Origin: Sthenelais limicola
Taxonomy: Eukaryota; Annelida; Polychaeta; Phyllodocida; Sigalionidae
Assembly: GCA_942159475.1 (NCBI GenBank)
Contig: OW804095.1
Coordinates: 155,918,664 to 155,982,663 of the forward strand
Direction: 5' to 3'
DNA: 64,000 nucleotides
A program made the translations under genes and the position numbers. The notes under the pieces were generated by a model. It ran no database searches. It was not told the origin of the DNA and saw only the letters and a program-made list of their open reading frames with translations. The number at the start of each line of letters is the position of its first letter. Positions within the stretch are counted from its first letter, which is position 1. Positions 7,277 through 41,400 of this stretch are shown in pieces.

Positions 7277-8199
7277 CACTTGTTGTTCTTGTTTCTACTT
7301 TTGCACCAAAAATTCCAAATGTATATATGGTATTATTTTGTTTAAAATGGTATGATGGATGTTAAATACTTTCCTATAAAAAGTAACTTCTGTACTTAAT
7401 ACTAGAAAATTGATATCAAGGCAATGTATAAAGAAGAGCTGTTTAACCTTAATGTTAATTGTATGACTGTTTGAACTTAATTGAAATAAAATAGTAACAC
7501 TCCATGATGACTAATATACCATGTTAAACAGCAGGTATGAATATATCTAGTGGAATGTTAAAATGATCAATAGTTAAACTTTCAAAAGGGATTTAGGGAG
7601 ATGGAGAGAGATTATTGCTAATGTAAGGTATAAGCAAAGATTATAATACATTATATCCACTTAAAATTCAAGATGTCCTCTATGAATTAAGATCGGATAA
7701 CATCTTCATTTACCAACTTCTAAAATTTGCCATTCTGACAGCATTTGTACATTTCTGGGCGACCTGACCCGTGTACTAGCAACGAATAAGGGAATCAGTA
7801 GAAATACTATTCATATAATCTTGAGATGTTTTATAGAGTGGCATACTCATGTCACGTCCTCATTAATGCCATAATTATGTCTTTCTCATGTGTTTTACGG
7901 TGCCCCATTTCCTATAGCTCACCTAATATCCCGAGATAACCCTACCTATTTATGAACAAAAACGCGTCAGAACATCTATTTTCATGATATAAGAAAAACT
8001 TCGGAATCAGAGCTATTTGAACATTGACCATTTTTAGCCCCCTGGACGCCAATAAATTATAATTGACCATATATTATATGCTAGCAGGAAATATAGGCTA
8101 TTATACAATGGCGTCGAACGGTGCACACGTAGGCTAGGAGTAGGGAGGACAGATCCCTTATTTCCACCACATAACAAATACTGGACATTATATACGTTC
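7277..8199. other. AT-rich stretch upstream of LINE-1
   Basis: No coding content. A short dispersed repeat containing ACTAGCAACGAATAAG and ATCAGTAGAAAT (7780-7830) recurs in diverged form near 22,395-22,440. Part of this stretch may be the 5' untranslated region of the LINE that follows; I cannot place its 5' end. Confidence 0.5.
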
Positions 8200-8323
8200 G
8201 TAATATGGATACTTAATGTGCCTGTGACCTACTACAAGGACTGAATTTGTGATCGTGTTTCTAATTAACATTATATTCAGGGATCTTATTCCTGTTACCA
8301 ATCTTTTCTCCATATATCGCCCA

Positions 8324-10246
8324 ATGGGTGACAAAAGCGCGGTAACCACTGTGCATAGCAACCACAACAACAATAACAATAAGCGACTTCCACGCGCCTT
8401 GAGTCGTATAATACCCAATCAAACTGACCCCACGACCCTAAAATTTTATTTAAGATCGCCAACCAAAATGAGTTCAGAAAGACGCTCATCTGACAGAATA
8501 AGCACATTACAATCTGATGGTAAACCTGCTTTATCAACCTTACAAACGGCGTCACCGACAGCCGACCAATTAAACCAGTCAAGTCACGAAACAGCTGATC
8601 GCCAGCACGCAGTAATGTATGCGGCTCAGCTAGAGTCTGTTCGTGACAAGGTGGAGACGGCCGATCCCTGTAATACGCCTCTACCAGTCTCACCGACCAA
8701 GACTTTGAATGTCTCTATTGATGAAACCGAAGATATTATCTCTCCTTCTGACCCAAATGATTCCTTCAGAGCTTACCTTGACCGATTAGTCAAAGATTTG
8801 AAAAAACACAATGAAGATTCTCTTGCGGAATTAAAGAGACACAATGAGGAAACCCTTTCAGCTCACACTACCAAAATTCAAGATAAAATAAATACAGCCA
8901 CCGCAGATATGATCTCGAATCAAGAGAAATATGATCAGCGCCTAACTGAAGTAGAACAAAGCTTGGGTGAACTAAATGAACGTACTGAGGAAAAAAACCT
9001 AAATTCCCTGATAAAAACTCAACTTGACGCTCATATTGTTATTCTGAACCAAGAAGTTGGGAAAGAAAAACAGTCCTGGGATAAACATATCCAGCTCATC
9101 AAAGATGACTTAAAAACCACTGCCTCTACGGTACTGAAACAGGACGATAGTGAAGCATTACGCACTAACATGGCCGAAGCAAATAAAAAACTCGGGGAGT
9201 TTGGAACGAAGCAAACAGGATTCGAGGGTCTCTTAGCTCAATCATCCAGGACCAATTCAAAATTAAAAGCCCAGCTGCTTGAAGCAAACAGCAAAAATGA
9301 GCTTCTTGACATCAAGTTAAGGAATAAAAACCTAATCATTCAAGGTGTACCTGAAAACAAAGGAGAAAATTTTGATGATTTCTTTTTCAACCTAATCTCC
9401 CCGACGGTCGACAAATTTGACCCAAGCCATATTGATTATGCCTACAGACGTGGAAAACTTAACCAGAAATTTGCAAGGCCCATCGTATTAACTCTTACAA
9501 CAGTAAGTATGAGGGACCAAATCCTAAAGCAGGCGAAAGAAATAAAAGACCAGAACAAAATGAAGGACCTTTGGATCAACAAGGACGTCCCGGATGAAAC
9601 TAATAGAAGGAGTGCCCTTATTCGTCAGTGCGGCAAAGCCCTGACTGCCCTGAAGACAGGGGACAAGCCAGTCATTCGTGCTAATCATCTGTTTCACAAT
9701 GACCGAAAATACTTCTATGATGACCTTCACCTTCTCCCAAGCGGAGCTACGCCTTATGATTTGAAAACACAAATATATCCAAACCAAAACGCGCTAGGAT
9801 TTCAAGGAGACCATGTCTATTTGTCTAATTTTTATAATGCTGATTTTTGGTACAAGGGAGTAATCTATAGCTCGGCCGAACAGGCTTTCCAGGTAGCTAA
9901 AGCTCTTGATAACCCAACCCCAGCAAATGCGAAACTAGCGAGTGAAATGAGTCACACAGATGACCCGTACGTTATCAAACAGAAGGCCGCAAGCATTACT
10001 CTAGGTTTGAATTGGCGTGCACGTGAACGAGAAATTCTGAAAGGTATTGTGCGTTTGAAATTTCAGCAGCTACATGAATTAAGGCAAAAGCTCAAAAACA
10101 CAAAGCAAACACAGTTTTTCGAAATGACACAAGACAAGAAATGGGGAACCGGTTTTCGTCTCGGCGACAAGCGTTTTGACCCTTCTCGTGTGTCAGGAAA
10201 TGAGTTTGGTATGATTCTAACCGAGCTGAAGCTTGAACTGAAATAG
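8324..10246 (+). CDS. LINE ORF1 protein: coiled coil, RRM-like domain and C-terminal NADAR domain
   Basis: This 640-residue protein starts at the first ATG of the open frame (the frame is open about 25 codons further upstream but without ATG). Residues 1-140 are polar and low-complexity, and about 145-330 are heptad-like and charged (coiled coil). About 333-430 match the RRM/CTD of LINE ORF1 proteins (KNLIIQGVPE, DLWINKDVPDE). About 491-637 are a NADAR (YbiA-like) domain: YLSNFY, SSAEQAFQVAKA with conserved Glu519, and WGTG with Trp607, followed by GNEFGMILTEL. Known ORF1 proteins bind RNA as trimers through the first parts. NADAR proteins process ADP-ribose-linked substrates, including ADP-ribosylated guanine. 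Its use by the element is inference. Confidence 0.88.
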   Translation: MGDKSAVTTVHSNHNNNNNKRLPRALSRIIPNQTDPTTLKFYLRSPTKMSSERRSSDRISTLQSDGKPALSTLQTASPTADQLNQSSHETADRQHAVMYAAQLESVRDKVETADPCNTPLPVSPTKTLNVSIDETEDIISPSDPNDSFRAYLDRLVKDLKKHNEDSLAELKRHNEETLSAHTTKIQDKINTATADMISNQEKYDQRLTEVEQSLGELNERTEEKNLNSLIKTQLDAHIVILNQEVGKEKQSWDKHIQLIKDDLKTTASTVLKQDDSEALRTNMAEANKKLGEFGTKQTGFEGLLAQSSRTNSKLKAQLLEANSKNELLDIKLRNKNLIIQGVPENKGENFDDFFFNLISPTVDKFDPSHIDYAYRRGKLNQKFARPIVLTLTTVSMRDQILKQAKEIKDQNKMKDLWINKDVPDETNRRSALIRQCGKALTALKTGDKPVIRANHLFHNDRKYFYDDLHLLPSGATPYDLKTQIYPNQNALGFQGDHVYLSNFYNADFWYKGVIYSSAEQAFQVAKALDNPTPANAKLASEMSHTDDPYVIKQKAASITLGLNWRAREREILKGIVRLKFQQLHELRQKLKNTKQTQFFEMTQDKKWGTGFRLGDKRFDPSRVSGNEFGMILTELKLELK

Positions 10247-10358
10247 GAATTAGGGTAAAGCACATGTCTATTATTAAGCCTCTGATACATGATAAACAGC
10301 GGGCACTTTGACACTGACATACTTTAATTCTGAAATTTATTTTCTCTCTATCATTAAG

Positions 10359-11024
10359 ATGGCTACCATCTACCTGATTGGCGACTCCCGTATTCGCAAC
10401 ATCAAACCATTTCTCAGGCCATACCTGTCACCTTCGCACTACGAGCACCTTCTGGTACTGTCATATTCGGGGGCTTCGCTGAAGCTTGCCTCTTACCTGG
10501 CGGAAGACAGGATAAGCTCAGGCAGACCTGGTACTATCATCTATACCGCCGGTCTGTGTACTATTACAAGGAAGAGGGACGGTTTCGTCACAGTAGCCCA
10601 CCCAACATCCAACCAGGCGGTTGAAACATACAGAGAGGACATGGAAGTAGTCGAACACCATACAAAGATGGCCTTATATCCCTGCCAAGCAAATATTATT
10701 TTTGCTCCAGTATCAGGGATGAATCTTGCAACCTACAACGCGCAATACTACAATCCACAGCAGGCGCTGTTGAACCTAACAGTCACTGAAGTAAACTTAG
10801 CTATTCGCCGCCGAAATGAAGTTAGAGGCTACCCCACCCCCTACCTCGCCGATTTTGTGCACCACAATTGCCGGGGAATGAAGCAAAACTACTATGGTCG
10901 CCTAGACATAGACGGTTGTCATCTCCCCCCTCGCGGACTGGACCACTGGTCAAGACAAATCGGCAAAATGATTCAGAGACTTGATGTTGCCATGCACCAG
11001 CATGCTATATTATATGATTTCTAA
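10359..11024 (+). CDS. SGNH/GDSL-hydrolase-like protein of LINE-1
   Basis: This is a 221-residue protein; the start is the ATG at 10,359, since the upstream extension has no ATG. The N-terminus reads MATIYLIGDSRIRN, giving the block I GDS with nucleophile candidate Ser10. Block II glycine is in YSGASL, block III is TAGLCT where the usual Asn is replaced, and block V is DGCHL with Asp185 and His188. SGNH esterase-like domains are known inside ORF1 of some CR1/L2-type LINEs; here the domain is a free-standing ORF 112 nt after ORF1 and about 390 nt before EN. No signal peptide or membrane segment is visible. The missing Asn leaves catalytic activity uncertain. Confidence 0.7.
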   Translation: MATIYLIGDSRIRNIKPFLRPYLSPSHYEHLLVLSYSGASLKLASYLAEDRISSGRPGTIIYTAGLCTITRKRDGFVTVAHPTSNQAVETYREDMEVVEHHTKMALYPCQANIIFAPVSGMNLATYNAQYYNPQQALLNLTVTEVNLAIRRRNEVRGYPTPYLADFVHHNCRGMKQNYYGRLDIDGCHLPPRGLDHWSRQIGKMIQRLDVAMHQHAILYDF

Positions 11025-11415
11025 TTAAGAACAAAAAGGGACGTGAGTAGAAAGCCTTTTTTTAAATAAACCCAGGTGTTGTTTGATGTTCTAAGAAAGC
11101 ACCAGGATATTTGCATATAGCTCCGTCCATACACATTAGTCAATGTGCCATGACTCATGACTCATGTTTCACTTGTTTCACTTGTTTCACTTGGTCGACC
11201 TTTTATCGACTAGTTAAAATAAGCATATGTGGTTATATATATATATAAACATTTTTTTCACTTATTAATTACTAGATAGTTGCTTCCCTGAAGCTTCTAT
11301 AGTTTATTTGGTAACATGCAATACTCGACGAAATTATTACGTATAAATTCAGTAATTTAATTTTCTTCACACTGTGTGTGGTGGTACTGGGGCCTCTGTC
11401 ACCCCGGTCTTGGTT
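11025..11415 (+). other. Spacer between SGNH ORF and EN-RT ORF of LINE-1
   Basis: This 390-nt region is AT-rich and contains a short tandem of TTTCACTTG-type words (11,165-11,195) and TA-rich DNA. No ORF was found. It may hold signals for translation of the third ORF, but none is recognisable. Confidence 0.5.
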
Positions 11416-12927
11416 ATGTTGGCACCATTAGCCGCAAATAGAAATGATGGTAATGTCGAACTATCACTAAGTGATAGCACAGTTTTCAAAGAAATAAAAG
11501 GTTTTAAGATAGTCAGTCTAAACGTGAGAAGTTTATCAAATAAGATCGATGAAGTAGAAGTACTATTTGATCAATTTCGATCCCAAGTAATATGTATTAA
11601 TGAAACTTGGCTCGACAACAAAACACACAATGGCATGATCAATCTAGTGGGTTACAATCTGGTCAGAAACGACCGTTTAACCAACAAAAAAACTGGGGGT
11701 GGTTTAGTCACATATGTATCAGAGCATTTAGAATTAATACCAGTTGGTGCTGAAATGCATTATTGTTCTGACGATGTTGAATTGCAAACAATTAGAATTA
11801 GACAAAACGAGAACAAAGTTATATCAGTAATTAATGTATACAGGAGCCCCAGTGGTAATCTGTCTGTTGCTTTGGAGATTATTATGAACATTCTAAATAA
11901 AATAGACCCAAAGGACGTTTTGATAATGGTCGGTGATTTTAATGTAGACTACGGTCCCTCGTCGGGTGCAAAATCTCAGTTACTTTCAATAGTAAACAAC
12001 ACTTCACTGAAACAATTTATAACCCTCCACACGAGGATAACTGCTACAACTAATACAATCTTGGATTTGCTTTTCTCAAACTCAAAATTCATACTCAAAT
12101 GTGGCACAATAAATGCTAACATAAGTGACCATAAGCCAATATATGCTATAATTAAAAAAGAAAAAGAAACTTATTCAAAAATTAGCTTTAAATGCAGATC
12201 CTATAGGCGTTATAGTGAAGAAATCCTAGCGAGGGACCTACTGTCAGAAAACTGGGATAATTTATTGGAATCTAAGGACCCAGAATTATCTTGGAACAAT
12301 ATGTATAACGTTATTATGTCGACAGTAAATATCCTGTGTCCTAGCTTTGTTAAAACAAATGTGAGGGCGAAAAAGCCATGGATAACTGCTGAGCTTCTAG
12401 ATTTGATGAAATCCCGAGACCAGATGTTTAGAGCTTCTCGGAAACTCAAAAACACTGGGCTCTTAGAAAAAGCAAAACAACTTAGAAGACGAGTAAACCA
12501 TATGTCTAGGAATTTAAAAAATAACTTTATAAAAAATGAAATTGAAGAAAACAAAAACAATCCTAGAAAACTTTGGTCTAAATTATCTCCGCTGATTAAC
12601 GGGAAAAACCGCTCACAGTATCAAGACATAATACTAGCACAGGATGACAATGAGATAGCAAAAGAGGCAGTCCCCGATGCATTCAATGGCTTTTTCGCCT
12701 CCATTGGCAACAAACTTGCCGATCAGATTCAAATTCCTGACGGTAATGAGCATGTAACTTATCAAGCGTCTAGTTCTACTGAAAATGTTCCTTCACAGTT
12801 TATGTATGAGCCTGTCTCAGTGATAGACTGCAAAAAAATAATAGACAGCATACCTTCAAGTAAATCCTCTGGCATTAAGGATCTCCCAGCATGGTTACTC
12901 AAAGTTGCCCTCAATTCATTAAGATAA
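11416..12927 (+). CDS. LINE AP-type endonuclease and RT N-terminal linker
   Basis: The first ATG of the frame is at 11,416. The APE-type endonuclease motifs are complete: SLNVRS (Asn36), NETW (Glu63), VGDFNVD (173-177) and ISDHKPI (Ser237, Asp238, His239). It would nick target DNA to prime reverse transcription. From about residue 250 to the end is the usual Lys/Arg-rich linker and the start of the RT fingers (SSKSSGIKDLPAW). The frame ends at 12,927, where the RT motifs continue in another frame, so this and the next entry are one original ORF2 split by a frameshift. Confidence 0.92.
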   Translation: MLAPLAANRNDGNVELSLSDSTVFKEIKGFKIVSLNVRSLSNKIDEVEVLFDQFRSQVICINETWLDNKTHNGMINLVGYNLVRNDRLTNKKTGGGLVTYVSEHLELIPVGAEMHYCSDDVELQTIRIRQNENKVISVINVYRSPSGNLSVALEIIMNILNKIDPKDVLIMVGDFNVDYGPSSGAKSQLLSIVNNTSLKQFITLHTRITATTNTILDLLFSNSKFILKCGTINANISDHKPIYAIIKKEKETYSKISFKCRSYRRYSEEILARDLLSENWDNLLESKDPELSWNNMYNVIMSTVNILCPSFVKTNVRAKKPWITAELLDLMKSRDQMFRASRKLKNTGLLEKAKQLRRRVNHMSRNLKNNFIKNEIEENKNNPRKLWSKLSPLINGKNRSQYQDIILAQDDNEIAKEAVPDAFNGFFASIGNKLADQIQIPDGNEHVTYQASSSTENVPSQFMYEPVSVIDCKKIIDSIPSSKSSGIKDLPAWLLKVALNSLR

Positions 12928-14354
12928 TAAATATGACTTATGCAAGTGGGATTATTCCCTCCAGTTGGAAAACTGCTTCGGTAACTCCACTGTTCAAAGC
13001 CGGTTGTACCTCTAACCCAAGTAATTACAGGCCCATTTCTTCTATATTATTACCTGCCAAGATAATGGAGAAAATATTTCACAAACAAGTTTCATGTTAC
13101 CTAGAGGAGAACAGTATTTTATATAACTCGCAATTCGGCTTTCGATCGAATCACTCAACTCAGGACGCTTTGTTAAACTATTTGAATACAATTTATTTAG
13201 CACTTAACGACGGACTTGTTGTGCGTTCGGCCTACCTCGACCTCAGAAAGGCCTTTGATACGGTCAACCACGAAAAATTAATAGCTAAGCTTGCAAAATC
13301 GGGGATTAGAGGTAAGGAGTTGGAGTGGTTTAAAAATTATTTAACGAACAGATTCCAGTCAGTGACTGTGAATAAATGTCAATCTAATAGCCTACCGGTA
13401 CTGTGCGGAGTGCCACAAGGCACCACTCTCGGACCACTCCTCTTTAATCTCTATATTAATGACTTACCAAAATTTATTTCTCACTCTAATATACAAATGT
13501 TCGCTGACGACACCATAATTTATGCAATAGGACATTCGACAGCTGAAATAAACGCAAAATTACAACCTGACCTTGACGCATTAAATTACTGGTGCAAAAT
13601 TAATAAAATTTCGCTCAATTTGGAAAAGACAAAAATTCAGACTTTCTTTGGCCAGGCCATTCTGAGGTCGAGGTGGGATCGAGAAAAAACCTACCTGAAA
13701 CCTGAAAATGTACTGGCTCTGGATGGGAGCAACCTCCAGGAGGTTGATGAGTATAAATACCTTGGGATTACGATTGATAAGGCTCTAAAATTTAAAGGTT
13801 TAGTTCAAAATTTAGTAAACAAGATGAATTATAAAAGTTGGCAGCTAGCAAAACTTAAGGATAAACTACCCATAAAAACCTTAATGCTTATTTATAAGGT
13901 TATGGTGCTGCCCCTTATCGATCAGTCCGATTTGCTTCACGACTCGCACACCACCTCAGGAACTAGCCGCCTTCAGATTATTCAGAATAAAATATTGCGA
14001 ACCATATTTCATCTCCCACCCAGAGCTAATGTGGATCAATTACATATAGATAATAGATTACTGCCTCTGAAACACCGCCGCCGACTGCACCTATTACAAG
14101 CAGGACATAGACTAGCAAAACATCCAAAAAATATTGAATTAAAGCTCCTGAATACGAGAAACTTTGCTGAAGGTAGAAAAGTCTTAAAACAGTTCACCCC
14201 TAAAAACGAACAACTACGAAAATCAGCATTGAATAGAATTACTTTCTCTTGGAATAGACTGCAGACAACGGCACATAAATTACTCGACCCCATAGCTTTT
14301 AAGATTCATGTCAGAAACAACCCTATTTGGGAAGACCAAAACTTTATCGATTGA
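12891..14354 (+). CDS. LINE reverse transcriptase
   Basis: This is the RT portion of ORF2. It carries NYRPIS, FGFRSNHST, AYLDLRKAFD (catalytic Asp codon at 13,239), GVPQGTTLGPLLFNLYIND, FADDT (catalytic Asp pair at 13,506-13,511) and a thumb/C-terminal region rich in Arg, Lys and His. It catalyses target-primed reverse transcription. The annotated start overlaps the EN frame by 37 nt; the true N-terminus lies in the EN frame, so the start here is nominal. Apart from this single frame change the region is open, suggesting a fairly young copy or a sequencing indel. Confidence 0.92.
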   Translation: MVTQSCPQFIKIINMTYASGIIPSSWKTASVTPLFKAGCTSNPSNYRPISSILLPAKIMEKIFHKQVSCYLEENSILYNSQFGFRSNHSTQDALLNYLNTIYLALNDGLVVRSAYLDLRKAFDTVNHEKLIAKLAKSGIRGKELEWFKNYLTNRFQSVTVNKCQSNSLPVLCGVPQGTTLGPLLFNLYINDLPKFISHSNIQMFADDTIIYAIGHSTAEINAKLQPDLDALNYWCKINKISLNLEKTKIQTFFGQAILRSRWDREKTYLKPENVLALDGSNLQEVDEYKYLGITIDKALKFKGLVQNLVNKMNYKSWQLAKLKDKLPIKTLMLIYKVMVLPLIDQSDLLHDSHTTSGTSRLQIIQNKILRTIFHLPPRANVDQLHIDNRLLPLKHRRRLHLLQAGHRLAKHPKNIELKLLNTRNFAEGRKVLKQFTPKNEQLRKSALNRITFSWNRLQTTAHKLLDPIAFKIHVRNNPIWEDQNFID

Positions 14355-14758
14355 TCAGATAGGAGAAAATGTTATACTATTAGTACTGTAACCTAATATT
14401 GGAAACCTTGTAAACCTGTGATATTCATAATTATGTATTGTAGTTACTATTTTTGATACCTCATGTTATACTCACTTTTAGACGACATATATATATTATT
14501 ATAATGTCATCGTAAAAACTTTATAAAGATTTTTTAAGTAAATTGATGTTACCATCATTGATTATCTTTCAACAACAGTAAAGTATTAAACATAGTTTGC
14601 TGTGTACCACTTTCGTCCACGACGATAGTGGAATTGTTCACGGCTACTTATAATGTAAGGCCTTAAAGAGGGCTGGCAAACCTCCCTTTGCTGGAGAAAT
14701 GCCTCCTTAATGTGACCTCGGTCAATTAATAAACGTTTACAAATACAAATACAAATAC
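14355..14758 (+). other. LINE-1 3' UTR and (AAATAC)n tail
   Basis: This is about 400 nt of AT-rich sequence after the RT stop codon. It ends in three ACAAAT-type units instead of a poly(A) tract, as is usual for CR1/L2-like elements. No hairpin strong enough to report was seen. Confidence 0.7.
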
Positions 14759-17049: not shown

Positions 17050-17645
17050 TTGTTTGGATAAACATTGCTCACTTATGCTCATTACTCAAAAACTATTTAA
17101 GCCTTTTACACAATTTAAATTGTATTAAATACCCCAACATATCTATTCGACTTTCCTAATTTTATATGATTATTGCGCAATTATTTCTACCTCTATTTCC
17201 AATCGTTGGAAAAGTAGCTATAAAATATATTCTATAGGATGAGCTATTCGCCGACATAATGTCTAAAATTGTGTCCGAATACTTCTGATCATTACTCAAA
17301 AACTATTTAAGATTTTTACACAATTTAAATTGTATTAAATACCCCAACATATCTATTCGACTTTCCTAATTTTATATGATTATTGCGCAATTATTTGTAC
17401 CTCTATTTCCAATCGTTGGTAAAGTAGCTATAGAATATACTCTATAGGATGAGCTATTCGCCGAAATAATGTCTAAAATTGTGTCAGAATACTTATGCTC
17501 ATTACTCAAAAACTAAATAAGCTTTTTACACAATTTAAATTGTATTAAATACCCCGACATATGTATTTGACTGTCCCAATACCATATGATTGTTGAGCCA
17601 TTAATTGTACCTCTATTTCTAATCGTTGGTAAAGTCTTCGTTTGT
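17050..17645. repeat. 210-bp satellite, first cluster (about 2.8 copies)
   Basis: Tandem AT-rich units contain ACTCAAAAACTATTTAAG, TACACAATTTAAATTGTA, TGATTATTGCGCAATTATTT and GGATGAGCTATTCGCCGA. The GTCTAAAATT word recurs at 17,261 and 17,471, a period of 210 bp. The last unit decays after the TTATTGAGCCATTAATTG variant. The monomer itself holds two short palindromes (AATTTAAATT and TTGCGCAA). Confidence 0.92.
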
Positions 17646-19357: not shown

Positions 19358-19765
19358 TCAACTAATGTTTAAAATTATGTCTGAATACTTCTGCTCATTA
19401 CTCAAAAACTATTTAACCTTTTTACACAATTTAAATTGCATTAAATACCCCGACATATCTATCCCACTTTCCTAACTTTATATGATTATTGCGCAATTAT
19501 TTGTACCTCTAATCCCAATCGTTGCTAAAGTAGCTATAAAATATAATCTAAAGGATGAGCTATTCGCCGACATAATGTCTAAAATTATGTCCGAATACTT
19601 CTGCTCATTATTCAAAAACTATTAAAGCTTTTTACACAATTTAAATTGTATTCAATACCCCGACATATTCATTTGACTGCCCTAATACCATATGAGTATT
19701 GAGCCATTAATTGTACCTCTATTTCCAATCGTTGGTAAAGTAGCTAAAATACTTCAGATAGCCTC
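19358..19765. repeat. 210-bp satellite, second cluster (about 1.9 copies)
   Basis: Same monomer as at 17.05 kb; phase markers at 19,367 and 19,577 give a period of 210. The final unit resembles the terminal variant of the first cluster (TATTGAGCCATTAATTGTAC). Confidence 0.92.
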
Positions 19766-21266: not shown

Positions 21267-21795
21267 ACTAATGTCTAAAATTATGTCCGAATACTTATGC
21301 TCATTACTCAAAAACTATTTAAGCCTTTTACACAATTTAAATTGTATTAAATACCCCAACATATCTATTTGACTTTCCTAATTTTATATGATTATTGCGC
21401 AATTATTTCTACCTCTATTTTCAATCGTTGGTAATATAGCTATAAAATAAACTCTATAGGATGAGCTATTCGCCGACATAATGTCTAAAATTATGTCCGA
21501 ATACTTCTGCTCATTACTCAAAAACTATTTAAGCTTTTTACACAATTTAAATTGTATTAAATACCCCAACATATCTATTCGACTTTCCTAATTTTATATG
21601 ATTATTGCGCAATTATTTCTACCTCTATTTTTAATCGTTGGGAAAGAAGCTATAAAATATACTCTATAGGATGAGCTATTCGCCGACATAATGTCTAAAA
21701 TTATGTCCGAATACTTCTGCTCATTACTCAAGAACTATTTAAGCTTTTTACACAATTTAAATTGTATTAAATACCCAAACATATCTATTCTATTC
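21267..21795. repeat. 210-bp satellite, third cluster (about 2.5 copies)
   Basis: Phase markers at 21,273, 21,483 and 21,693 are exactly 210 bp apart. The array stops abruptly near 21,790 at a CTATT microrepeat. Confidence 0.92.
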
Positions 21796-23777: not shown

Positions 23778-26700
23778 CTAAGACTTCAGTTGTAATCGGT
23801 CTGGGGGACGGCGCACCCGTTTCCCCTTTACAACTTCGACAGGAGAGCTAGCTCTATCCTTTCTGACTTTCTTCACCCGTGCTACTGAATCTTTCGCCGG
23901 CCTCCCTACTTTCTTTACGGTAGGTTTCGGCAGCGGATCAGCAACAACTTTACGAGGTCTACCCCTCCGTGGAGCTACAGCGGAAACCGGCGGGTCTGGC
24001 AACCGTAGCTTCCGTGGTCTTCCGCGTTTCCGCTTGACAATGTTAGCTTGGGGCAAGGGCGGAACAGGCAGAACAGCGGTCTTTGTGGCTTTCAAACTCT
24101 GTTTCCCCTTCTTAGGCCTTCCCCGTCGTTTCACAAACACGGAGACTTTTTCTCTCTCTTTCAGATCAGGACATTCCTTGCCAGCTATTACTTTCCCACT
24201 TTCAAGTCTGAGGACGTCGCGGCCAGCCTTCTGCAATGCACGGAACTCCGGTGCTCTGTCAAGATAAACAACCTGCACGGGTCTGTCCTTGTCAAAAGCT
24301 TGCTTAAGGTAGTTGACATGACACCTTACGACTCCTGCAACTGTTTCCAGTTCATAGGTTGTACCCCCTATAAACCGTTTTACTTTGAAGGGGCCATCCC
24401 ACTTGGGACCGATCTTTTTACTGGCCTGCGGATGGTTGTAGCGGTATACAACATCCCCCACTTCAAAGGTCTTAGGCTTAGCTCGCCGATCGAAATCCCG
24501 TTTCTGGTGGATCGCTGCCACTCCGAGATTCTCACGGACGAACTTATGCCCAAGCTTCAACCAATGCTTCAAATTCTCCACGAACGGCACTCTGCATGGA
24601 AAATCCAGACCGCCTGGTTCCACCCCGTGGACCAAGTCCATAGGCGTTACCAGCTCGTCACCAAACACCACAGAGTTAGGTGTGCATAACGTACTTGCAT
24701 GCACACTCGCTCTGTACGCGTGAGCGACACACGGAGCCAACAAATCCCAATCCGTTGCACTATAATCCGTCAGACAGGACAGTTGTTCTACTAGGACTCG
24801 GTTCATTCTTTCCGTCTGACCGTTTGACTGCGGTCTATACGGTAAGGTAATGAGCTTTTCTACCCCTAGCATCTCCAACAAGCTCCGCAACAGGGTGGAT
24901 CGAAACTCCGGTGCTCCGTCCGTTTGCAACGACACGGGACAACCAAACCGGAGGATCCATTCCCTGAAGAGAACTTCCGCACATCTCTCAGCGGTGTGGT
25001 CTGGCATTGGATAGGTCTCCGCCCACTTTGAAAAGTGATCCGTCACTACCATGATGAAGTTATTACCTCTAGGGGTAAGACGGAACGGACCTATAATATC
25101 CAATCCAATTCGACTCCAGCGTTCTCCATGCAATTCCTTCTTAAGAGGCATGACTCCGCCACCACCCCTCGTCTTTCGCATGCTACATTCCGGACATGCC
25201 CTGAGCCACCTTTTCAGATCACTTCTCATGTTGGGCCAGAAGTACTTCTTCTTGGCTGTCCAACCAGTCTTGAAAGATCCGAAATGCCCAACCGTCTTCG
25301 GTCCATGCATTCCCTGGAATATCTCATAGCGAAGCGCAGTAGGAATTACTTTGCGCACGTACGTGATTCCTGTGCGAGGTCGAGTCCACGACAAGCACAA
25401 CACACCATTCTTCATCGACAAACTCCCCAAGTTATGCATATAGGTACAGAATTCGTCTGATTCACCAGACAGGGACTGCTTGTCCAGAACCGAGACTTCT
25501 CCTTCCACTATAGCAATCACTCTTAAGATCTCTGGGTCGTCTTGCTGAGCTGTCCGGATGATTTCTCCCGTAGCAGCAAGGGTCACAGTGGTCGCAGCAA
25601 CAACAGCGTCGTGCGCCCCACAATCAACACAGTCAAATCGAGCACACTTCCGGGTCGGAACCCGGGAAAGCGCATCAACATTGACATGTTTCTTCCCCGC
25701 TCTATGGAGAATCATTCTCTGATCCAGGCCATACTCTTGCATCTGGGTTAACCAGCGCGCCAGCATGTCCATAGGATCCTTGAAGTTCAGGAGCCAACGC
25801 AGCGAAGCATGGTCCGTCCGAACAAAGAAGTTCCGATTCCCTAATAAATAGTGCCGGAATTTCTTCAGATAGGTAAGCACAGCCAACAACTCTCGTTTGG
25901 TCGCACAGTAGTTCCGTTGGGCTTTATCCAAGCTATTACTAGCGTACCCAAGGACTACCTCCTTACCATCTTGGACCTGGGACAGAATCCCTGCCTTGCC
26001 ATACCCACTGGCATCCGTGTCTAAGATAAACTCCCCCTCTTTCCGAGGGTATCTCAACAACGGAGCCCGGGTCAACAAATCTTTCACGCTCTGGAATGCA
26101 ACTGCACACTCCGGGGTCCAGTTTATTGCTTTCGTGTATCGTTTTTCTCTTCCGGCTGCCGTTACTACGTCCTGCAACGGGGAGACAACTGCAGCGAAAT
26201 TCGGTTGGAATTCCCTGTAGTAGGACGCGAATCCTATAAATTGTCTAACTTCCCTCGCAGTCTTCGGAACGGGCCAGTCACGGACCTTCTGTATCTTCTT
26301 CGGGTCCGCTCGAATTCCTTTTTCCGATACTAATCTCCCCAAGTACTCCACTTCACGGCGGAATAGTTCACATTTCTTGGGTTTCAGCTTCAACCTGTAT
26401 TCCCGGATTCGTTCAAGAACCAACCGCAGATTTAGCAGACAACCATCGAATGTCACGCCAAATACAACGATATCATCGAGATACACCAGACAAGACTTCC
26501 AGCGAAGGTCGTCTAGCATACGATCCATCATCCGCTGGAATGTGGCAGGAGCATTGCACAATCCAAAGGCCATAACCTTGAATTGAAACAATCCAACGCT
26601 GGACAGGAAAGCCGTCTTTTGCTTACTCTCCTCGTCCATCGCTATCTGCCAATACCCACTTTCCAGGTCGAGGGTGCAGAACCATTTATTTCCACCCAAC

Positions 26701-26801
26701 GCCTCGACACACTCGTCTATTCTAGGGAGTGGAAAGCTGTCCTTCACTGTGACGGAATTGAGCTGGCGATAATCGACGCAGAAGTGTTGAGTTCCCAACA
26801 A
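23778..26801 (-). pseudogene. Pol of element A: RT, RNase H, integrase with AT-hook tail
   Basis: A 1007-residue open frame. [22 protein letters not shown] and YLDD (near 26,475). RNase H: DTDASG, ATKRELLA and TDHASLRW. Integrase: zinc-binding HFG/CPEC, then LDIIGPF, TDGAPEF and GQTERMNR, with the catalytic Glu present. The C-terminal tail (from about 24,135 to 23,896) holds four AT-hook-like cores: RRGRPKK, KRGRPRK, RRGRPRK and VGRPAK. The apparent start is internal: the RT N-terminus lies in the next frame upstream because about 11 bp are missing near 26,785 relative to the other copies. Non-functional as one polyprotein unless this is an assembly error. Confidence 0.9.
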
Positions 26802-28332
26802 TCACGATGGGTGCTCCCCACGGACTATTAGAATGCTCAATACGCCCCTGCTCGTACATCTTCCAGATCTCCGCTTCAGCTACTTCACGCTTAGACACCG
26901 GAATCCGCCTATAAGCAAGCTTGATAGGTCGAGAGTCGGCAGTATCAATTACGTGTTTCACGACATGGGTGCAACCCGGATCTTCTCTCCAACCATCTCC
27001 GGGTAGCGAAAAGCTCCCACGAAACTCATTAAGAAGACCCATCAGCTTTGACCTCTCTGTCGGATCAGTCAAATCAGAGTCCCTTACAAGTTTCTTCAAC
27101 GGACATTCTGTACTTGGTGGCACAGGGTCATCCGGGGCAATCAAATCCTCATCTACCACAGACGGGGTTTCTACCACCTGTATAGAGTTGATGATTGCAT
27201 CCTTTATTTTGTCCTCCGGACACATATTCACCCCCTCCGGACTAGTAGTGGGTGACGATAGCAGCGTCACATCACTCACTCGTCCAACCACCATATCAAC
27301 ACCTAAACGTAGGGTTTCTGCAGACGGATTACTAAAGGCCACAGTCGCCGTAGCGTCAGCCGAGATATATGAATCAAGGCATCCCACAGTGTAATCCTTT
27401 AGAAAACTCTGGTCCGGCTCAAACATCAAACCCGTTGACGAATCCGAGCACCCGCGAACATCGATCTTAACCAGTGTAGCTGAATAAGGACGAAGGACCA
27501 CCGCTTTCCGAAGTGTTACCTGCCTTCCATCGCCTACTTCACTAGTTGTAATCATATTCACCGAGGGACCCAATTGCTTTGGCGGATCACCACGCCAGTG
27601 ATGCATGATCACAGCGTCTTCTCCATCATTCAAAGACAATTTCCCTGACCAGCACACATAACATCTATGCACAAGATTGAAATCCTGCGCCAAGATTCCG
27701 GACTCCAGGCCAGATAAACCCAATACTACCAGACACGTTAACATGTACGTCCGTTTCCCTAACGTCAAAGGGAACAGAGCGCTACCATGCACAGTAATCT
27801 GTGAATCGTTTCCCATCGTGCACGCCAACCGGCACGGAACCAGTGGCGGCGGCCGACGCAGGGAGTCATAGAACGTCTTCGTCACCAGGCTAGTGGTAGC
27901 GCCCGGATCCCAAAGGAAATCACCAACATCCCCATTCACTGATACTGAAGCGTACCATCTATCCGCAATATATGGATCACAGAGCTTCAACACCCTCTGA
28001 TCATCCACGGAAACTTTCTGAATACTCGCACCCGTGATGGGACCTGACTCCGCTATCACCAAATGCCCTGACTCAGCTTGGTAACCTGCCTTACCCCAAC
28101 AAACGTTGTCGGAGTCTGCAACTACAGGAAAATCCCTGGAATCTACACCATTCCTGGAATGAGTGGTCTCGTCCGCTCGACGCGCCCGAACCGCTTTCGT
28201 ACTTCCCTGGCAGACAGCCTCAGGCTCAGCAGTACTTACGGGAGCTAGAGCCCCACACCCAGTCTTCATTTCAGACACAGAACGATCATGAACTGCAGTA
28301 CTAGGAAGCGCAAACAATTCCCCGGATCCCAT
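26722..28332 (-). pseudogene. Pol N-terminus of element A: protease and start of RT
   Basis: The ATG lies 8 nt after the gag stop codon, in a different frame, suggesting separate initiation or re-initiation. Residues around 130-240 form a retropepsin-like domain with FLWDPGATTSL at the active site; Pro replaces the usual Thr or Ser. Near the C-terminus are YRRIPVSKRE and HSNSPWGAPIV, the beginning of RT, after which the frame is lost near 26,785. Confidence 0.85.
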
Positions 28333-28340
28333 CTCGCTTC

Positions 28341-30344
28341 TTATGAGACCCGTTTGGAGTTTTCCGACGACTCCGGCTTCACTGCTTGATCAGCCTTTGT
28401 CGCGGAACCTCCCCTACCAGTTGCGTCTTTCCAGACATCCCTCTGCGGACAGCTAGCCATAAAATGACCCTCCTGACCACATTGGAAGCAACCAGTCCGC
28501 TTCACACCTCTCTTCCAGTTAAACTTCGATTGTTTACCGGAAAACTTCTGTCCAGACTGTCCTACCCAGGACCGTAGAGCCTGGACGACAGCTTCAGGGA
28601 CGTCATCGCCACATGAGTCTTCCGCCACAGGTTCGGCAGCTGTAGCTTGCACGGAAACCTTTGGGTTTTTCTTCCTCACATCCGGGCCAGCAGTGGTAAG
28701 TGTACTTATAGAGGCAACACTGCCACTCTCCAAGTAACAACTCTCCCACACCTCCGCCCAGTGTATGGCTCTCAGGAGATCCTTCGGCTGTTTCAGGCGA
28801 ACCCAATCAGCCATATCCTGATTCGTCACTCCCTGTAGGAATACACAGAGGGAAACTGACCTCAACGTGTTATCCAATGGACCAAAAGCACGTCGCCCCT
28901 TCCGAGCAACGTCATTACCGAAAAGTCTAACCGACTGGTTCGGAGTCTGGCGGGAATTATATAATTCTGCCTGCTTTCTGGGTCTAGACTTCTCGCCAAA
29001 TTTTGCCTCCATATGGTCGACAAACTGCACAAGAGTCAAGTTCTCCGGCAAATCTCCCATTTCCGCCAGTTGTCTCCTGGAACCACAGATCAACTGTCGT
29101 AACAACTGTTCGGGGCTCCAGTTGTGCGCGGTAGCAATAACTTTCATTTCCGCCAAGTATATCCTCCACAAAATAACGCCATCCCACAACCTGGGTACGG
29201 ATACTTTCGGAGCAATACTCTCACGGGTCGAAGACTGATTGTAATTAAAATCCTCATCCGACTCATCCGGTCCAGTATACTCAAGACCCTGGACAAGAGA
29301 ACGATCTTTCCGGCGGGACCTACTAGATCGACAATAATCTTTTCCACAGTCGTCATCAGAGTCATCTGAGTCACTATCACCTCCGGAAGGCTTCTTCCGG
29401 GCTTTAGTACTGGACAACACAGAACTGGGGGAACCAGGGGAACTGTGGTAGTACGTACCATCACGAACTCTACCATTAGGAGTTTTAACGACAGCGTTAC
29501 GTGACTTCGAAACAACCACATTGCTCTGTTCCTTGCGCGGGGTAACATTCTTGCTGGTCAAAAACGAACCATCATTTGCATTCCCTTTCGGGGAAGATGA
29601 AGCTTGTGCCTGCTTTGAGAACGTAACATGCCTGTCTACATCCTCCGGCCCTTTAGCTGCAACAATGGACGGATCGTCCAACATCGGTGCAAATGACAAC
29701 TTCGGATCAGCAAAAGTTGACGTCACTGGAGCTTTGGGTGTGTATGCACTTTTAACCTTCAGCAACATACCAATCAAATCCTCACCCTGCGAAGTGTCCG
29801 GCGGGGGCGTGTCTTCCGTCCCATCCTCCGAAACACAATCTTCCACCGTCACCGGCGGAGGCGGTCCGTAAACAGCATCATGTATAACTCCTCGAAGAGT
29901 TGCATTCTGCTGTGTAACGTCTGCCATACGCGCATGCAAATCCTCAGCAGCACTTCTATGAGCTTTAAAGTCGGCACGCATCTTCCGGAATTCGTGACGG
30001 AGTTCATCCTCAGTCAAGTCTTCCGGGGACCGACGCCACTGATTGAAAGCACTACCTGCTCCAACATCTACCCGGTGCACAGAACCATCGCCCTCATAAG
30101 CGAAAGTTCCCTCATCCTTACGGGATACGAGATCCTTACGGTCCTGTTCCTTACGGGGACCTAATAGTCCTTTCATCGGAGGACCAAAGGTATCCGTAAC
30201 TATATACGACAACCTCGGAGGTTTGATCACAGTAGCGACCTTTGCCGGAGACTTGACCACACTGACTTTAGGCGGAGACTTCATGCCCAGCGGGGCAACG
30301 GTACCATCCGCTGCTTCAGCCATTTGGTCGGGTCTATCAGCCAA
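28341..30344 (-). CDS. Gag of element A
   Basis: An intact 667-residue ORF beginning 97 nt inside the LTR. The N-terminal third is polar with a short coiled coil (about 110-150). The centre has an Asp/Ser-rich stretch and then the capsid-like region (LVQGLEYTGPDES, RLWDGVILWR, LRQLICGSRRQL). The C-terminus has one CCHC zinc knuckle, CFQCGQEGHFMASC, for RNA binding. Long for a Ty3/gypsy Gag. It has no stop or frameshift, unlike pol. Confidence 0.88.
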   Translation of the reverse strand: MADRPDQMAEAADGTVAPLGMKSPPKVSVVKSPAKVATVIKPPRLSYIVTDTFGPPMKGLLGPRKEQDRKDLVSRKDEGTFAYEGDGSVHRVDVGAGSAFNQWRRSPEDLTEDELRHEFRKMRADFKAHRSAAEDLHARMADVTQQNATLRGVIHDAVYGPPPPVTVEDCVSEDGTEDTPPPDTSQGEDLIGMLLKVKSAYTPKAPVTSTFADPKLSFAPMLDDPSIVAAKGPEDVDRHVTFSKQAQASSSPKGNANDGSFLTSKNVTPRKEQSNVVVSKSRNAVVKTPNGRVRDGTYYHSSPGSPSSVLSSTKARKKPSGGDSDSDDSDDDCGKDYCRSSRSRRKDRSLVQGLEYTGPDESDEDFNYNQSSTRESIAPKVSVPRLWDGVILWRIYLAEMKVIATAHNWSPEQLLRQLICGSRRQLAEMGDLPENLTLVQFVDHMEAKFGEKSRPRKQAELYNSRQTPNQSVRLFGNDVARKGRRAFGPLDNTLRSVSLCVFLQGVTNQDMADWVRLKQPKDLLRAIHWAEVWESCYLESGSVASISTLTTAGPDVRKKNPKVSVQATAAEPVAEDSCGDDVPEAVVQALRSWVGQSGQKFSGKQSKFNWKRGVKRTGCFQCGQEGHFMASCPQRDVWKDATGRGGSATKADQAVKPESSENSKRVS

Positions 30345-30425
30345 TCTCCGAACCTCTGCACAACGCAGTCCTGTTTCACCAAGAAACTACAGTCACACTA
30401 TCAACAAGGTCTGCGGCCAGAAACT

Positions 30426-34459: not shown

Positions 34460-36672
34460 TAGAGCGAAACCATGGAGACTGGATTTCATGGATAGAGAAC
34501 TGGGGCCGGAAACCCTGAGGAGTCTCCCCGCGGAATTTGAGTCACCTTCCTCTGACCATGGTGCCAAAGACGGAGCTAGACCAAAATATCCCGGAGGGAA
34601 TTTCGCGGAGTGGAGAGGCCCGCCGAAAGACCCGGACGATTCTGACCTTTGGGAAAGGTATTGTCGGTCAATTGCCGTTGAGCTCCAAACCCAAGTCCGC
34701 GACCTGATGGATGAGAACTTTGAGCTCCGTAAGAAGATCAATACAGAGTCCGTGGACAATGGTCCGGATGGGCGTTTACTTGACGATCATGTAAAGCCCT
34801 CCGACGGGGACCCCGCAGAGACGAGAGACGTGAGATGACAGCTCTGGAGAAGGACTTGCTTGATATGATCCAGGGGATCGTGAAGCAGAATCCTACCAGA
34901 GGTCCTGTGACATCCATGTTTATCCAAAAAGCGGTTAGTGAGCCAACAGAAGATGATTCATCAATTGTGTCCTATCAGGGCGGAAGAGACCGAGATCACC
35001 GCAGTGTGATGACCTCGTCCCCAAGACGAACATGAAAGAAACATGATGACTCTCAGTGGGGAGAACCTGATCGCAAACGACAGGGAAATCATGGCAGAGA
35101 GCATGGCCGAGGGAATAGTCCTTCTGGTTATATATATTGTGAGGTTATGAAGCAAGAAGTCAAGGCTTTGGTTGGTAGAATAATCGACCTTTAATGTGCG
35201 TAAAATCTCAGCTTATATCCTAGCCTGGCGGCCTCATTCTCTCCTCCCGCCCCCCTCATTGGCTGCGGCCCCCTCTCTCTCCTTGGGTCACTTTATTGTA
35301 CCAGGAGGGAGGGTAGGCAGGAGTCACGTACATTCTTATTAATTATTACGAGTGCCAGACCAGTACAACAATTCCAATTAGCATAATTATCAAGGTAACA
35401 ACACACACCCATATAGAGCAATAATATTACCATTAATTAACCTTTGTAATAATTTAATGAAGATGGATCCTAATGATCCTCCCCCACTTGGTTGATTACT
35501 CATTAGCAGACCCCCTCCTTATATGGCTTATCAAAATAAGGGTCGCCTCTGACTCTCCCTTGGAGGAGCTGGCAGGGCATGCACGTTCAGCGAAAATTAC
35601 AGCATCCCCATTGTTTCCACGGAGGCGGTCTCGAGCAGACTTGGACAGTTTGGACAAGGATTGTCGACAGAGGTCGTCTTCCCATAGATCCTGTAGAACC
35701 AACCGGTCCCTAGTCCCTGGTCTTGAGTATGATGGGCCAGAGGAGTCCGATGCCAAAATGTTCCGCCAAAATGTTCCGCCAGAGAAGATGTGGGATGGCA
35801 AAACTGCGTGGCGGACCTACCTCATGGAGGTAAAGGTCATCGCTGAGTCGCACAATTGGACATCTGCTCAATTGCTTCGTCAATTGAGGTGCGGCACATG
35901 CAAACAGCTGGCAGAAATGGGGGATCTGTCAGTGGACATCAATCTCCGGCAGTTCGTTGAGCACATGGATGCAAACTTCGGAGAAAGGTCCAAGTTCCGG
36001 TTGTAGGCTGAGTTCTACAACTGTAGACAGACCCCCGGACAAGCTGTTTGCTTGTTCGCCAATGAGGTGGCACGGAAAGTCGTTCGGTCACATGGACAAT
36101 ACACTGAGAGCTGTGTCCCTGCGCATTATTTTGCAAGGGGTCACAAGCGCTGAGATGTCCGCGTGGGTGCGACTGAAGCAACAATGGGACTTGCAAAGCG
36201 CAGTACATTGGGCGGAGGTATGGGAATCCTGTCAATTGGATTCTCGCTCAGTGACGACCATCAATGCAGCAGAGGCTGCCTTGGTTGTTCCGGAGAATCC
36301 TGCACCCAGTAGCAGATCGTTGTGAAGATCATCGTGGAGAGCGATTGTCCAGGCCACATGTGCAGAGAGTGCTTCAGACTCATTGGATGATGTTCTGCAA
36401 GCTGCTGTGATCCAAGCCTTGCAAACTAAGCCTTGCAAACTTGGAAGGGCGGACAGAGGCGCAATGGAGGCGGAAGGACTTCCGACAGTACCTGACAGTG
36501 GAGAGCGAAATCGGAGAGGCCCCATGGGAGTTGCTATGCTTGTGGACAGGAAGGGCATTACATAGCCAAGTGTCCCAGGCGAGCAAATAAGAAGAAGGAG
36601 ATTACGGACTCAAGGCAATTACAGATGGGAAAACCTCAGAGTCGGAACACTCCAGCAAGCTTTGATTCGTAA
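34460..36672 (+). pseudogene. Decayed gag of element C/D
   Basis: Reading jumps between frames. Recognisable parts are: an N-terminal coiled-coil segment (DLWERYCRSIAVELQTQ, near 34,650); PVTSMF near 34,905; LVPGLEYDGPEES, then MWDGKTAWRTYL and LLRQLRCGTCKQLAEMG (35,710-35,920); DNTLRAVSLRIILQGVTS near 36,095; and a complete CCHC knuckle CYACGQEGHYIAKC at 36,532-36,573. Each has a counterpart in gag of element A. The gag stop is the TAA at 36,670. Several frameshifts and stops plus an LTR-like insertion at 35.14-35.49 kb show it is dead. Confidence 0.82.
35138..35490. repeat. LTR-like insertion within gag of C/D
   Basis: This segment has no counterpart in gag of element A and begins TGTGAGGTT. 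Its first ~100 bp match 15,981-16,090. A CCTCCCCCACTTGG stretch lies at the right end. It may be a solo LTR, but its right boundary and target duplication are unclear. Confidence 0.5.
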
Positions 36673-36681
36673 ACGGGATCC

Positions 36682-37828
36682 CTTTAAAGATGAGAAAATT
36701 TTCCCATCCAAGGTTTGGTTCAACAAAAAGTACATGTTCTTCCATGAGCACGACAGTGTGGAAATGAGGCAGAAGAAAAATCTCATGCGATTATTAGCCA
36801 AGAAATCTGTTGACGCAGGAGCAAATCCTCAGTGTACTAAGCCTAAAGGCGACCAAGTAATGATCAATGGCGTGACATATAATTCAAGGCAACTACATAC
36901 CCTGGATGCTCAATATTCAGTAGAAAATGTCAAAATCGTGAAGGTAAAGAATGGCATAGCTTTTCAAAGCGAAAAGGCATATTTAAGCAACTTTTTTCCT
37001 TGCGAATTTATGTACAATGATGTGTTGTTCAACTGCTCAGAGCAAGCATTTATGTATAAGAAGTGTATGGATCACGGCAAGGACGACATCGCCAAATCGT
37101 TACTCGAGCATCAATGTCCAAGGGAAATTAAGGCCATTGGGGATAGAGTCAGTACGATTGATCAGTGGAAAAGCAGGCAGATAGACATTATGTGTGACAT
37201 CGTTAGATGTTAGTTCTATCAAAACACCCATCTTGTGAATAAACTAGTAAGCACTGGATCAGCCAAATTGATCGAGGCAACTAGCAATCTCTACTGGGGT
37301 GCTGGATGTTATCTCGGAGACATTTGGCAGGGGAAAAACCAATTGGGAGTGATCCTCATGAAGGTGAGAAGTGAGATTGCAAATGCCATTGCTACTAATT
37401 CTTTCCAAGCATTGGTATCCAAGAAGGCCAAGTCGCCATCGAAACGCCTACCAGTAGTGGTTGACAAAGATGGTTTCAGAAATCCACGAGTAGCAGCAAG
37501 GAAGCTTGACAGTAGGAAGTCGTCATCCACCGTTTCCATGTCGAATCCATTTGACATATTCGAAAATTCGTCCCATGACATCAGTAGCAGCTTCAACAAG
37601 ACAATAGTACACACAAGTCTTCCAAAATTAAGCAGATCAAGGTGCGATGATAATGTTTACATGGACATACTCGACAGTTCTGGTATTGACATGTCATCAA
37701 CGGAGGCAAATAGGTCAACACGACAACTACGTTCTCTCGCACTAAATCTCCACATGGACTCATATACACTGCATGAAACAGCAACAGACTTGCACGATAT
37801 CACCAGCAGTCAATCCACTAAATTCTGA
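36682..37828 (+). pseudogene. LINE-2 ORF1 C-terminal part with NADAR domain
   Basis: One frame with a single in-frame TAG at 37,211. First comes the ORF1 CTD region (KVWFNKKYMFFHEHD, GVTYNSRQLHTLD). Next is a NADAR domain: AYLSNFFPCEF, CSEQAFMYKK (Glu codon at 37,040), then after the stop NLYWGAGCYLG (Trp codon at 37,295) and GKNQLGVILMKVRSE. It continues for about 150 residues of polar, Ser-rich tail of unknown role. The 5' end is truncated by the insertion break, so the upstream coiled coil and RRM are missing. The layout is the same as ORF1 of LINE-1 but the sequence is well diverged. Confidence 0.85.
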
Positions 37829-39254: not shown

Positions 39255-39472
39255 AACACTCACACATGCACTAAAACACAGAATATTGGTAAACCATGTA
39301 GGCCCTATTATGTATCTCCACATATCTCATCACTTAAGTAGCTTGTCACAAATAATCATAAATGGTAGTGGTTCGTCATAATTTACATCCATAAAGCAAT
39401 TAATCCCTGATTTAAATTACTACAATTAAGATCAATCTTCTCCTTTAAAACACCGTCCACAGTCACCCTATA
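39255..39472. other. Inserted sequence, left flank
   Basis: Part of a ~2.2-kb segment that interrupts the EN-RT linker of LINE-2; no motif seen. Confidence 0.45.
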
Positions 39473-41235: not shown

Positions 41236-41239
41236 GGCA

Positions 41240-41400
41240 GCTGGAGATAACACGGAGGTTTCCCGGCGGTTTCCCTGAGGTTTCCCGGAGATTATTCCGG
41301 ACATATTCCAGAGATTATTCCAGACATATTCCAGAGATTATTACGGACATATTCCTGAGATTATCTGGACATATTCCGGAGATTGTTCTGGAGGTTTCCC
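41240..41400. repeat. 23-bp minisatellite
   Basis: Four to five units of GAGATTATTCCGGACATATT begin at 41,288, 41,311, 41,334, 41,357 and 41,379, preceded by AGGTTTCCCGG-type half units. A plus-strand open frame runs through it only because 23-bp units happen to avoid stops. Confidence 0.88.

Follow-up and report, generated by a model that had tools for sequence, protein, structure and literature searches.

A LINE of the annelid Sthenelais limicola encodes an ORF1 protein that ends in a complete NADAR domain, and this domain is held by purifying selection with its active-site residues in place. The element lies in the window, by which we mean the whole stretch of 64,000 nucleotides that was analysed, and all coordinates refer to this window unless a locus is named. 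Our results suggest that elements of this kind keep their genetic material clean or protect it.

A Full-Length LINE with Three Open Reading Frames

The sequence from 8108 to 14758 on the plus strand is a full-length non-LTR retrotransposon (LINE) of about 6.65 kb, which belongs to a group that we call lineage A. We base this call on a shared 5′ start and on the extent of homology among copies. The match of four copies on four other contigs (L002 to L005), which are 97 to 99% identical to the window element, begins at one common base, 8108, while in the more distant copies L009 and L010 the homology runs to 14754, beside the 3′ repeat tail. This tail consists of (ACAAAT)n short tandem repeats (14739 to 14758) and is known from the window copy only, as a search of L009 to L028 for three or more units found none. 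The features found are those of a LINE, namely, an APE endonuclease and a reverse transcriptase (RT) in the last ORF and a common 5′ end in dispersed copies, together with a 3′ tail in the window copy only.

Three ORFs follow each other on the plus strand. The first, at 8324 to 10246, had been reported as one open frame in the initial annotation, and it is indeed a single frame of 640 amino acids that comprises an N-terminal region, a coiled-coil region, an RRM, a region at the CTD position, and the NADAR domain. The second, at 10359 to 11024, encodes an SGNH/GDSL-like protein of 221 amino acids. The third consists of an endonuclease part at 11374 to 12927, whose start codon is provisional (Pfam Exo_endo_phos_2, E = 1.5e-10), and of an RT part in a different frame at 12891 to 14354 (Pfam RVT_1, E = 1.9e-35). 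A single frameshift near 12.9 kb splits these two parts in the window copy; in nine relatives, both share one frame of 958 to 1003 amino acids. The RT carries the pattern GVPQG(T/S), which we take to be that of CR1/L2/Jockey-group LINEs rather than L1/Tx1, and this argues against membership in the Tx1 clade. Given the Pfam match to NADAR, the copies on four contigs, and the common start at 8108, a chance frame or an artefact can be set aside.

The protein encoded by the middle ORF is SGNH-like, an assignment that is putative and not proven. In 13 aligned rows, there is no variation in the GDS motif, in a glycine block, or in D-x-C-H, and the block that usually holds Asn reads GLCT. The AlphaFold2 model has a mean pLDDT of 85.5 and a pTM of 0.84. 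The Pfam GDSL family gave no match in the window copy's middle ORF and, of five further proteins, matched a single one with an E-value of 0.069, and there was no SGNH chain among the matches of a PDB profile search with this ORF.

Other repeats are present in the window as well. Two large Gypsy-like elements were recognized by eye from RT/integrase-like frames at 23778 to 30386 and 44342 to 53264 (minus strand). In addition, a 210-bp tandem repeat forms three arrays (17071 to 17635, 19363 to 19746, and 21269 to 21790), with copies that are 91 to 97% alike and with short GC-rich 15-bp repeats directly before the second and the third array.

The ORF1 Protein and Its NADAR Domain

The NADAR domain occupies residues 496 to 639 of ORF1 (9809 to 10240), where Pfam PF08719 matches with an E-value of 4.1e-15 and a score of 56.8 bits (the cut-off is 35.1), over positions 9 to 162 of the 163 in the profile. 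A profile of 15 families, compared with PDB chains, finds the NADAR of P. nicotianae (8bau, E = 8.6e-12) and YbiA (2b3w, E = 7.7e-6). The initial annotation had called the domain from short motifs; these motifs are present, the family match is significant, and the domain is complete.

We mapped individual residues from the 8bau profile alignment, in which subtracting 2 from the chain number yields the numbering of PMC11543638, a correspondence taken from the spacing. In this way, E43, K50, K75, W89, E125, D130, and W133 of P. nicotianae become E519, K526, K552, W564, E600, D604, and W607 of ORF1. In the available text of PMC11543638, E43, K50, and E125 are described as residues for ADP-ribose binding or hydrolysis in NADAR, and a Glu at the E125 position is what defines the YbiA subfamily. 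Judged by its sequence, the LINE NADAR is of this YbiA type, having Glu (E600) and not Asp or His at that position. According to our reading of the alignment, R79 and R93, which hold the pyrophosphate in P. nicotianae, are not kept in the LINE NADAR, and the loop from the catalytic Glu to the Asp is one residue shorter.

Pfam gave no meaningful family match on the stretch of ORF1 preceding NADAR. However weak its E-values (0.014 to 0.037), the match of the 15-family profile to the RRM of LINE-1-type ORF1p lies in the right place, and the only non-NADAR matches of this profile at E-values up to 1 are LINE-1-type ORF1 chains (2w7a, 2yko, 2ykp, and 2ldy), all over the RRM. By profile comparison, then, the RRM is of the LINE-1 ORF1p type (type II), on a match that is weak but specific. 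The RRM and CTD together span residues 326 to 482 (9299 to 9769), with approximate borders that we set ourselves and with the CTD identified by position only: there is a conserved region where a CTD is expected, and the profile gave no match to the solved LINE-1 CTD. An AlphaFold2 model of residues 322 to 640, which covers the RRM, CTD, and NADAR, has a mean pLDDT of 84.6 and a pTM of 0.59, with a low-confidence spot at model residues 176 to 180. Coiled-coil periodicity is weak in the window copy, where 39 of 500 shuffles equal it, and clear in some relatives; among nine rows, the observed value is reached by 0 to 4 of 500 shuffles in four and by 12 to 60 of 500 in five. Thus, of the coiled coil and RRM/CTD described in the initial annotation, the RRM stands on its weak profile match, the evidence for the coiled coil is mixed, and the CTD is placed by position. 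The order of coiled-coil region, RRM, and CTD-position region is the same as in LINE-1-type (type II) ORF1p, to which NADAR is added here at the C-terminus.

Copies and Lineages in the Genome

A search of the 1.13-Gb genome with ORF1 (P0001) returned 69 scored matches from 5523 first-look candidates. By our count, 61 of the 69 reach residue 637 or beyond, 52 of them without an internal stop; two of the eight short matches are 5′ halves of copies that appear a second time in the list with their 3′ half. A Pfam NADAR search of the same genome gave at least 150 matches over the cut-off (the best 150 of 5561 candidates), 148 of the best 150 being free of internal stops, and the first piece of a second NADAR in the window, described below, likewise retrieved at least 150 relatives (the best 150 of 4461 candidates). 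These lists contain the best matches only, unmerged, and are biased to intact copies. A scan of the genome for a mollusc haemocyanin domain gave 0 candidates, in a run whose control did not match either, and we had no ground to take the host for a mollusc.

We also examined copies chosen without regard to NADAR, through their SGNH gene. From the lower-scoring part of a search with an SGNH protein (the best 150 of 2875), 20 places were picked by eye, and the 900 bases upstream were examined in all six frames. NADAR sequence was found upstream in 19 of the 20 copies, the top match being on the sense strand; the domain is complete and open in 12, partial or damaged in seven, and absent in one (L080). 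Among the 12 intact copies are two identical pairs and some copies that are nearly identical. As read from their sequences, the catalytic Glu and the Trp are present in every one of the 12, and 10 have Asp at the D604 position, the others having N (L068) and S (L077). Elsewhere, locus L029 has a lone NADAR frame of 162 amino acids (349 to 834) that retains E, D, and W and may be a gene of the host or an element of its own; its contig has two further NADAR matches in frames of this length (C1:89380390 and C1:66983187).

Five lineages of ORF1-NADAR (A to E) were sampled in this genome, and the window holds two of them. The second ORF1-NADAR, of lineage B, is found at 36566 to 37828 on the plus strand, with an in-frame stop at 37211 to 37213 and Pfam NADAR E-values of 3.7e-10 and 1e-10 on its two pieces. 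Remains of a LINE follow on the same strand from 38730 to 43138, with an endonuclease-like stretch (38730 to 39254) and a stretch resembling the region upstream of an RT (41440 to 42261), both recognized by eye, and an RT fragment (42683 to 43138; RVT_1, E = 2.4e-14); Pfam found no RT or endonuclease match on the first two. The RT fragment, 47% filled in the alignment, groups with the lineage-B locus L039 with support of 94/93, and these remains probably belong to the same lineage-B LINE as the ORF1 before them. The other members of lineage B are L032, L033, and a minus-strand piece in L014; lineage C is represented by L030, D by L031 and L034, and E by L035. In C, D, and E, an SGNH-like ORF, recognized by eye from its motifs and in all three without a Pfam match, lies downstream of ORF1 and is followed by the endonuclease-RT. 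In lineage B (L039), the endonuclease-RT is downstream and there is no other sense frame of at least 150 amino acids. The ORF1 proteins of lineages C and D (L036:4608-5600 and L037:2-826) have long low-complexity tails after NADAR, and lineage A is without such a tail.

Outside the host genome, four proteins (P0004 to P0007) carry NADAR and resemble the lineage-A ORF1 plan. By eye, P0004 to P0006 have the order RRM-CTD-NADAR, P0007 is shorter, and P0002 is a CTD-NADAR fragment. A protein search with residues 320 to 640 of P0001 found none at E-values up to 0.001 among 3125 candidates; alignment-based protein searches yielded two and four related proteins.

Regarding the history of the domain, trees of RT, NADAR, RRM-CTD, and SGNH recover the same main groups within lineage A (14 rows; 11 for SGNH), except that L026 shifts its position and L027 lacks resolution in the RRM-CTD tree. 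NADAR has therefore been largely inherited with the element in this lineage, and free swapping of NADAR between LINE families was not seen there. Across lineages, the branches of the RT tree are long and its forks weak. The NADAR tree of 43 rows has weak deep nodes, with a viral NADAR group near lineage D at low support. As for a recent capture from a single bacterial source, the lineage-A NADAR profile had 101 pattern matches in genome contigs of bacteria and archaea, none of which was confirmed as a relative. With these weak nodes and a scan that confirmed no relatives, the data are compatible with one ancient fusion as well as with several captures. As for the viral sequences, one contig (L041:595-6405) has NADAR inside a frame of at least 1937 amino acids with an HExxH motif seen by eye, and others (e.g., L043, L048, and L058) have NADAR in long frames that are open to the start of the locus.

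Conservation and Selection

We assembled 28 lineage-A loci and aligned the 27 whose ORF1 frame runs without a break at least from residue 320 through NADAR; L010 was left out, as its frame stops within NADAR, and L009 and L025 have a break nearer the N-terminus. Within this lineage, no other part of ORF1 is as well conserved as NADAR. Its mean pairwise identity is 60.3%, followed by the CTD (56.2%), the RRM (50.7%), the coiled coil (29.6%), and the N-terminus (24.5%), as calculated from 12 representatives that we chose among the 27, with 15 to 66 pairs per domain.

All seven mapped residues (E519, K526, K552, W564, E600, D604, and W607) are identical in 27 of 27 rows, the window copy and several groups of near-identical copies being among them. 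In an alignment of lineages A to E (seven rows), they are again invariant, except that K526 is K in four rows and R in three. This pattern bears on the notion that NADAR is a reader, guiding the RNP to insertion sites by way of damaged chromatin or ADP-ribosylated nucleic acid. ORF1p of known LINEs binds nucleic acid, and conservation at the ADP-ribose-binding positions K552, W564, and W607 equals that at the catalytic positions. Nevertheless, a pure reader would not need the catalytic E600, which is invariant in the 27 rows and in the 12 intact copies chosen through SGNH, and we consider this role unlikely.

The domain is under purifying selection. The omega of NADAR is 0.09 for L018-L020 (dS 0.87) and 0.10 for L020-L021 (dS 0.99); close pairs give values from 0 to 0.29 on few changes, the highest (L013-L027) resting on four, and many or most of the wider pairs are saturated in dS and uninformative. 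For comparison, omega is 0.05 to 0.12 for RT and 0 to 0.40 for SGNH (pairs with non-zero dS), the high SGNH values coming from close copies. Across five closely related pairs, NADAR has accumulated 30.8 synonymous and 14.2 replacement changes, that is, a pN/pS of 0.13 (P = 1.9e-11 under neutrality), and in the same pairs this ratio is 0.11 for the RRM, 0.15 for the CTD, 0.11 for the coiled coil, and 0.28 for the N-terminus. The constraint on NADAR is therefore similar to that on the remainder of the working element. The initial annotation had proposed a dN/dS comparison across copies and had named neutral decay of NADAR as an outcome that would refute its reading; such decay was looked for and not found, as omega, the close-pair counts, and the comparison with RT are all against it.

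It could still be argued that NADAR is a passenger or a purely structural part of ORF1p whose chemistry is unused, and in fact, no activity is reported for any LINE NADAR in the literature that we searched. However, a passenger would hardly be expected to be the best conserved part of ORF1, with active-site residues that are invariant across lineages whose ORF1 proteins (six aligned frames) are otherwise 20 to 26% identical to P0001. We regard this explanation as very improbable.

A Putative Eraser of ADP-Ribose and Its Probable Opponent

The reading that we prefer, and to which we give roughly even chances, is that ORF1p carries a putative guanine de-ADP-ribosylase that would keep the RNA or cDNA of the element clean. 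ORF1p would bind the element RNA through its RRM-CTD part and would display a YbiA-type NADAR that may hydrolyze ADP-ribose from guanine. With the NADAR displayed on this protein, the RNP would have its own eraser, so that the template RNA and the nascent cDNA could be kept free of adducts which, if left, would block translation or reverse transcription. The suggestion in the initial annotation that the element has its own nucleic-acid de-ADP-ribosylase fits these observations, because the fusion is real, is selected, and has known active-site residues; the enzymatic activity itself is putative.

What is known of other NADARs is consistent with such a function. According to the available parts of the respective reports, NADARs take ADP-ribose off guanine in DNA (PMC11543638) and off guanosine in RNA, but do not act on ADP-ribosylated phosphate ends (PMC11833690). 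YbiA and the T4 NADAR, in the accessible text of PMC11125620, are active in vitro and yet did not protect cells from DarT1; therefore, activity need not mean protection. The substrate might also be a small molecule (NAD, ADP-ribose, or riboflavin-pathway intermediates) or NAD-capped RNA rather than ADP-ribosylated bases. Bacterial and plant NADARs are described in PMC11543638, as far as its available text goes, as N-glycosidases that also act on riboflavin intermediates, and NAD-capped RNA is our own addition to the list. The fusion to LINE ORF1 in five lineages nevertheless points to a nucleic-acid substrate, and we find the small-molecule or cap alternative rather improbable.

If ORF1p does erase guanine marks, its probable opponent would be a host nucleic-acid ADP-ribosyltransferase that acts on guanine. 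The initial annotation had thought of PARP-type defences, in which RNA-directed PARPs would mark the element RNA and the LINE would erase the mark. The genome does have PARP domains, with 23 matches to the catalytic domain, counted by exon and not by gene. One of these loci, L066:134-6457 (G000:C6:65847800-65855000), has a frame of 2107 amino acids with cold-shock, ZNFX1, AAA_11/AAA_12 helicase, and two PARP domains, an RNA-directed architecture that makes it a candidate RNA-directed host ADP-ribosyltransferase; further PARP matches, at C7:72259422 and C7:79592852, lie in frames of 2098 and 2030 amino acids. Moreover, DarT1, which writes on guanine, is placed in the same ARTD class as PARPs in the accessible part of PMC11543638. 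On the other hand, the third triad position in the PARP domains of L066 reads A and D by eye, and results on other NADARs speak against a PARP-type writer: in the available text of PMC13036486, bacterial NADARs act negligibly or not at all on the uracil marks made by PARP10, and phosphate-end marks, as mentioned above, are not removed. We give little credence to a PARP-type writer as the opponent.

For a guanine eraser, guanine-specific writers of the pierisin/CARP-1 type fit better than PARP-type ones as the opponent. CARP-1 in clams and pierisins in butterflies are reported to ADP-ribosylate guanine at N2 (PMC11209040, in its available part). A search of the host genome for the Scabin-like family PF22596, which would indicate a pierisin-like writer, gave no match among 16 candidates, in a run in which the control matched nowhere.

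Even more generally, and only tentatively, since we hold it possible but not probable, invertebrates might possess a guanine-ADP-ribosylating defence against the RNA or cDNA of mobile elements, answered by a NADAR eraser in the RNA-coating protein of several LINE lineages. This would be a eukaryotic counterpart of DarT1-NADAR, and many "animal NADARs" would really be LINE ORF1 proteins. The genome has at least 150 scored NADAR matches; in nearly all of the places that we read, NADARs sit in LINE ORF1 proteins, and selection keeps the LINE NADAR about as strictly as the reverse transcriptase. The LINE setting gives such NADARs a concrete context and a testable job, and it suggests a search for the opposing writer.

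Comparison with Known Systems

The initial annotation knew of no published account of the role of such fusions, which needs a slight correction: a 2025 report (PMC12477816) mentions, in its available text, NADAR in ORF1 of several Tx1 LINE families of the oyster Crassostrea gigas and suggests a role in the processing of RNA intermediates. In the part at hand, this is one passage on divergent Repbase hits. In both cases, a YbiA-family NADAR is found in the ORF1 protein of an invertebrate LINE. Unlike the oyster Tx1 LINEs as described there, lineage A has a separate SGNH-like ORF in between and an RT with GVPQG(T/S), although the oyster elements are known to us by description only and their families may be identical to ours. 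We found no other reports of NADAR in LINE ORF1 in the literature searched, most of the subscription journals lying outside that search. In the available text of a survey of 448 Jockey-superfamily ORF1s (PMC4120745), NADAR is absent from Table 1, and the combination of a type II-NADAR ORF1 with a separate SGNH ORF was not found.

Capture by a retrotransposon is not limited to LINEs. In Ectocarpus, according to the same passage-level account in PMC12477816, a conserved NADAR was likewise captured by a retrotransposon, but there the element is an LTR element of a brown alga with NADAR in the Gypsy Pol, while here it is in LINE ORF1. The DarT1-NADAR toxin-antitoxin systems and the free NADARs of E. 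coli, T4, and P. nicotianae (PMC11543638 and PMC11125620, available parts) share with the LINE proteins the same domain, of the YbiA type with Glu, and the E43/K50/E125-type residues. In contrast to the LINE NADAR, those NADARs are mostly free-standing in the descriptions given there and are not fused to a mobile-element ORF1 protein. Similarly, the esterase (SGNH) ORF1s of CR1/L2 LINEs, for instance, ZfL2-1 (PMC3905857, in its accessible text), are LINE-encoded SGNH-like proteins, but in the elements described here the SGNH-like protein has an ORF of its own beside the type II-NADAR ORF1. Against this background, the three-ORF layout, the constraint on NADAR, the conservation of its active site, the presence of five lineages in one genome, and the control chosen through SGNH appear to be new.
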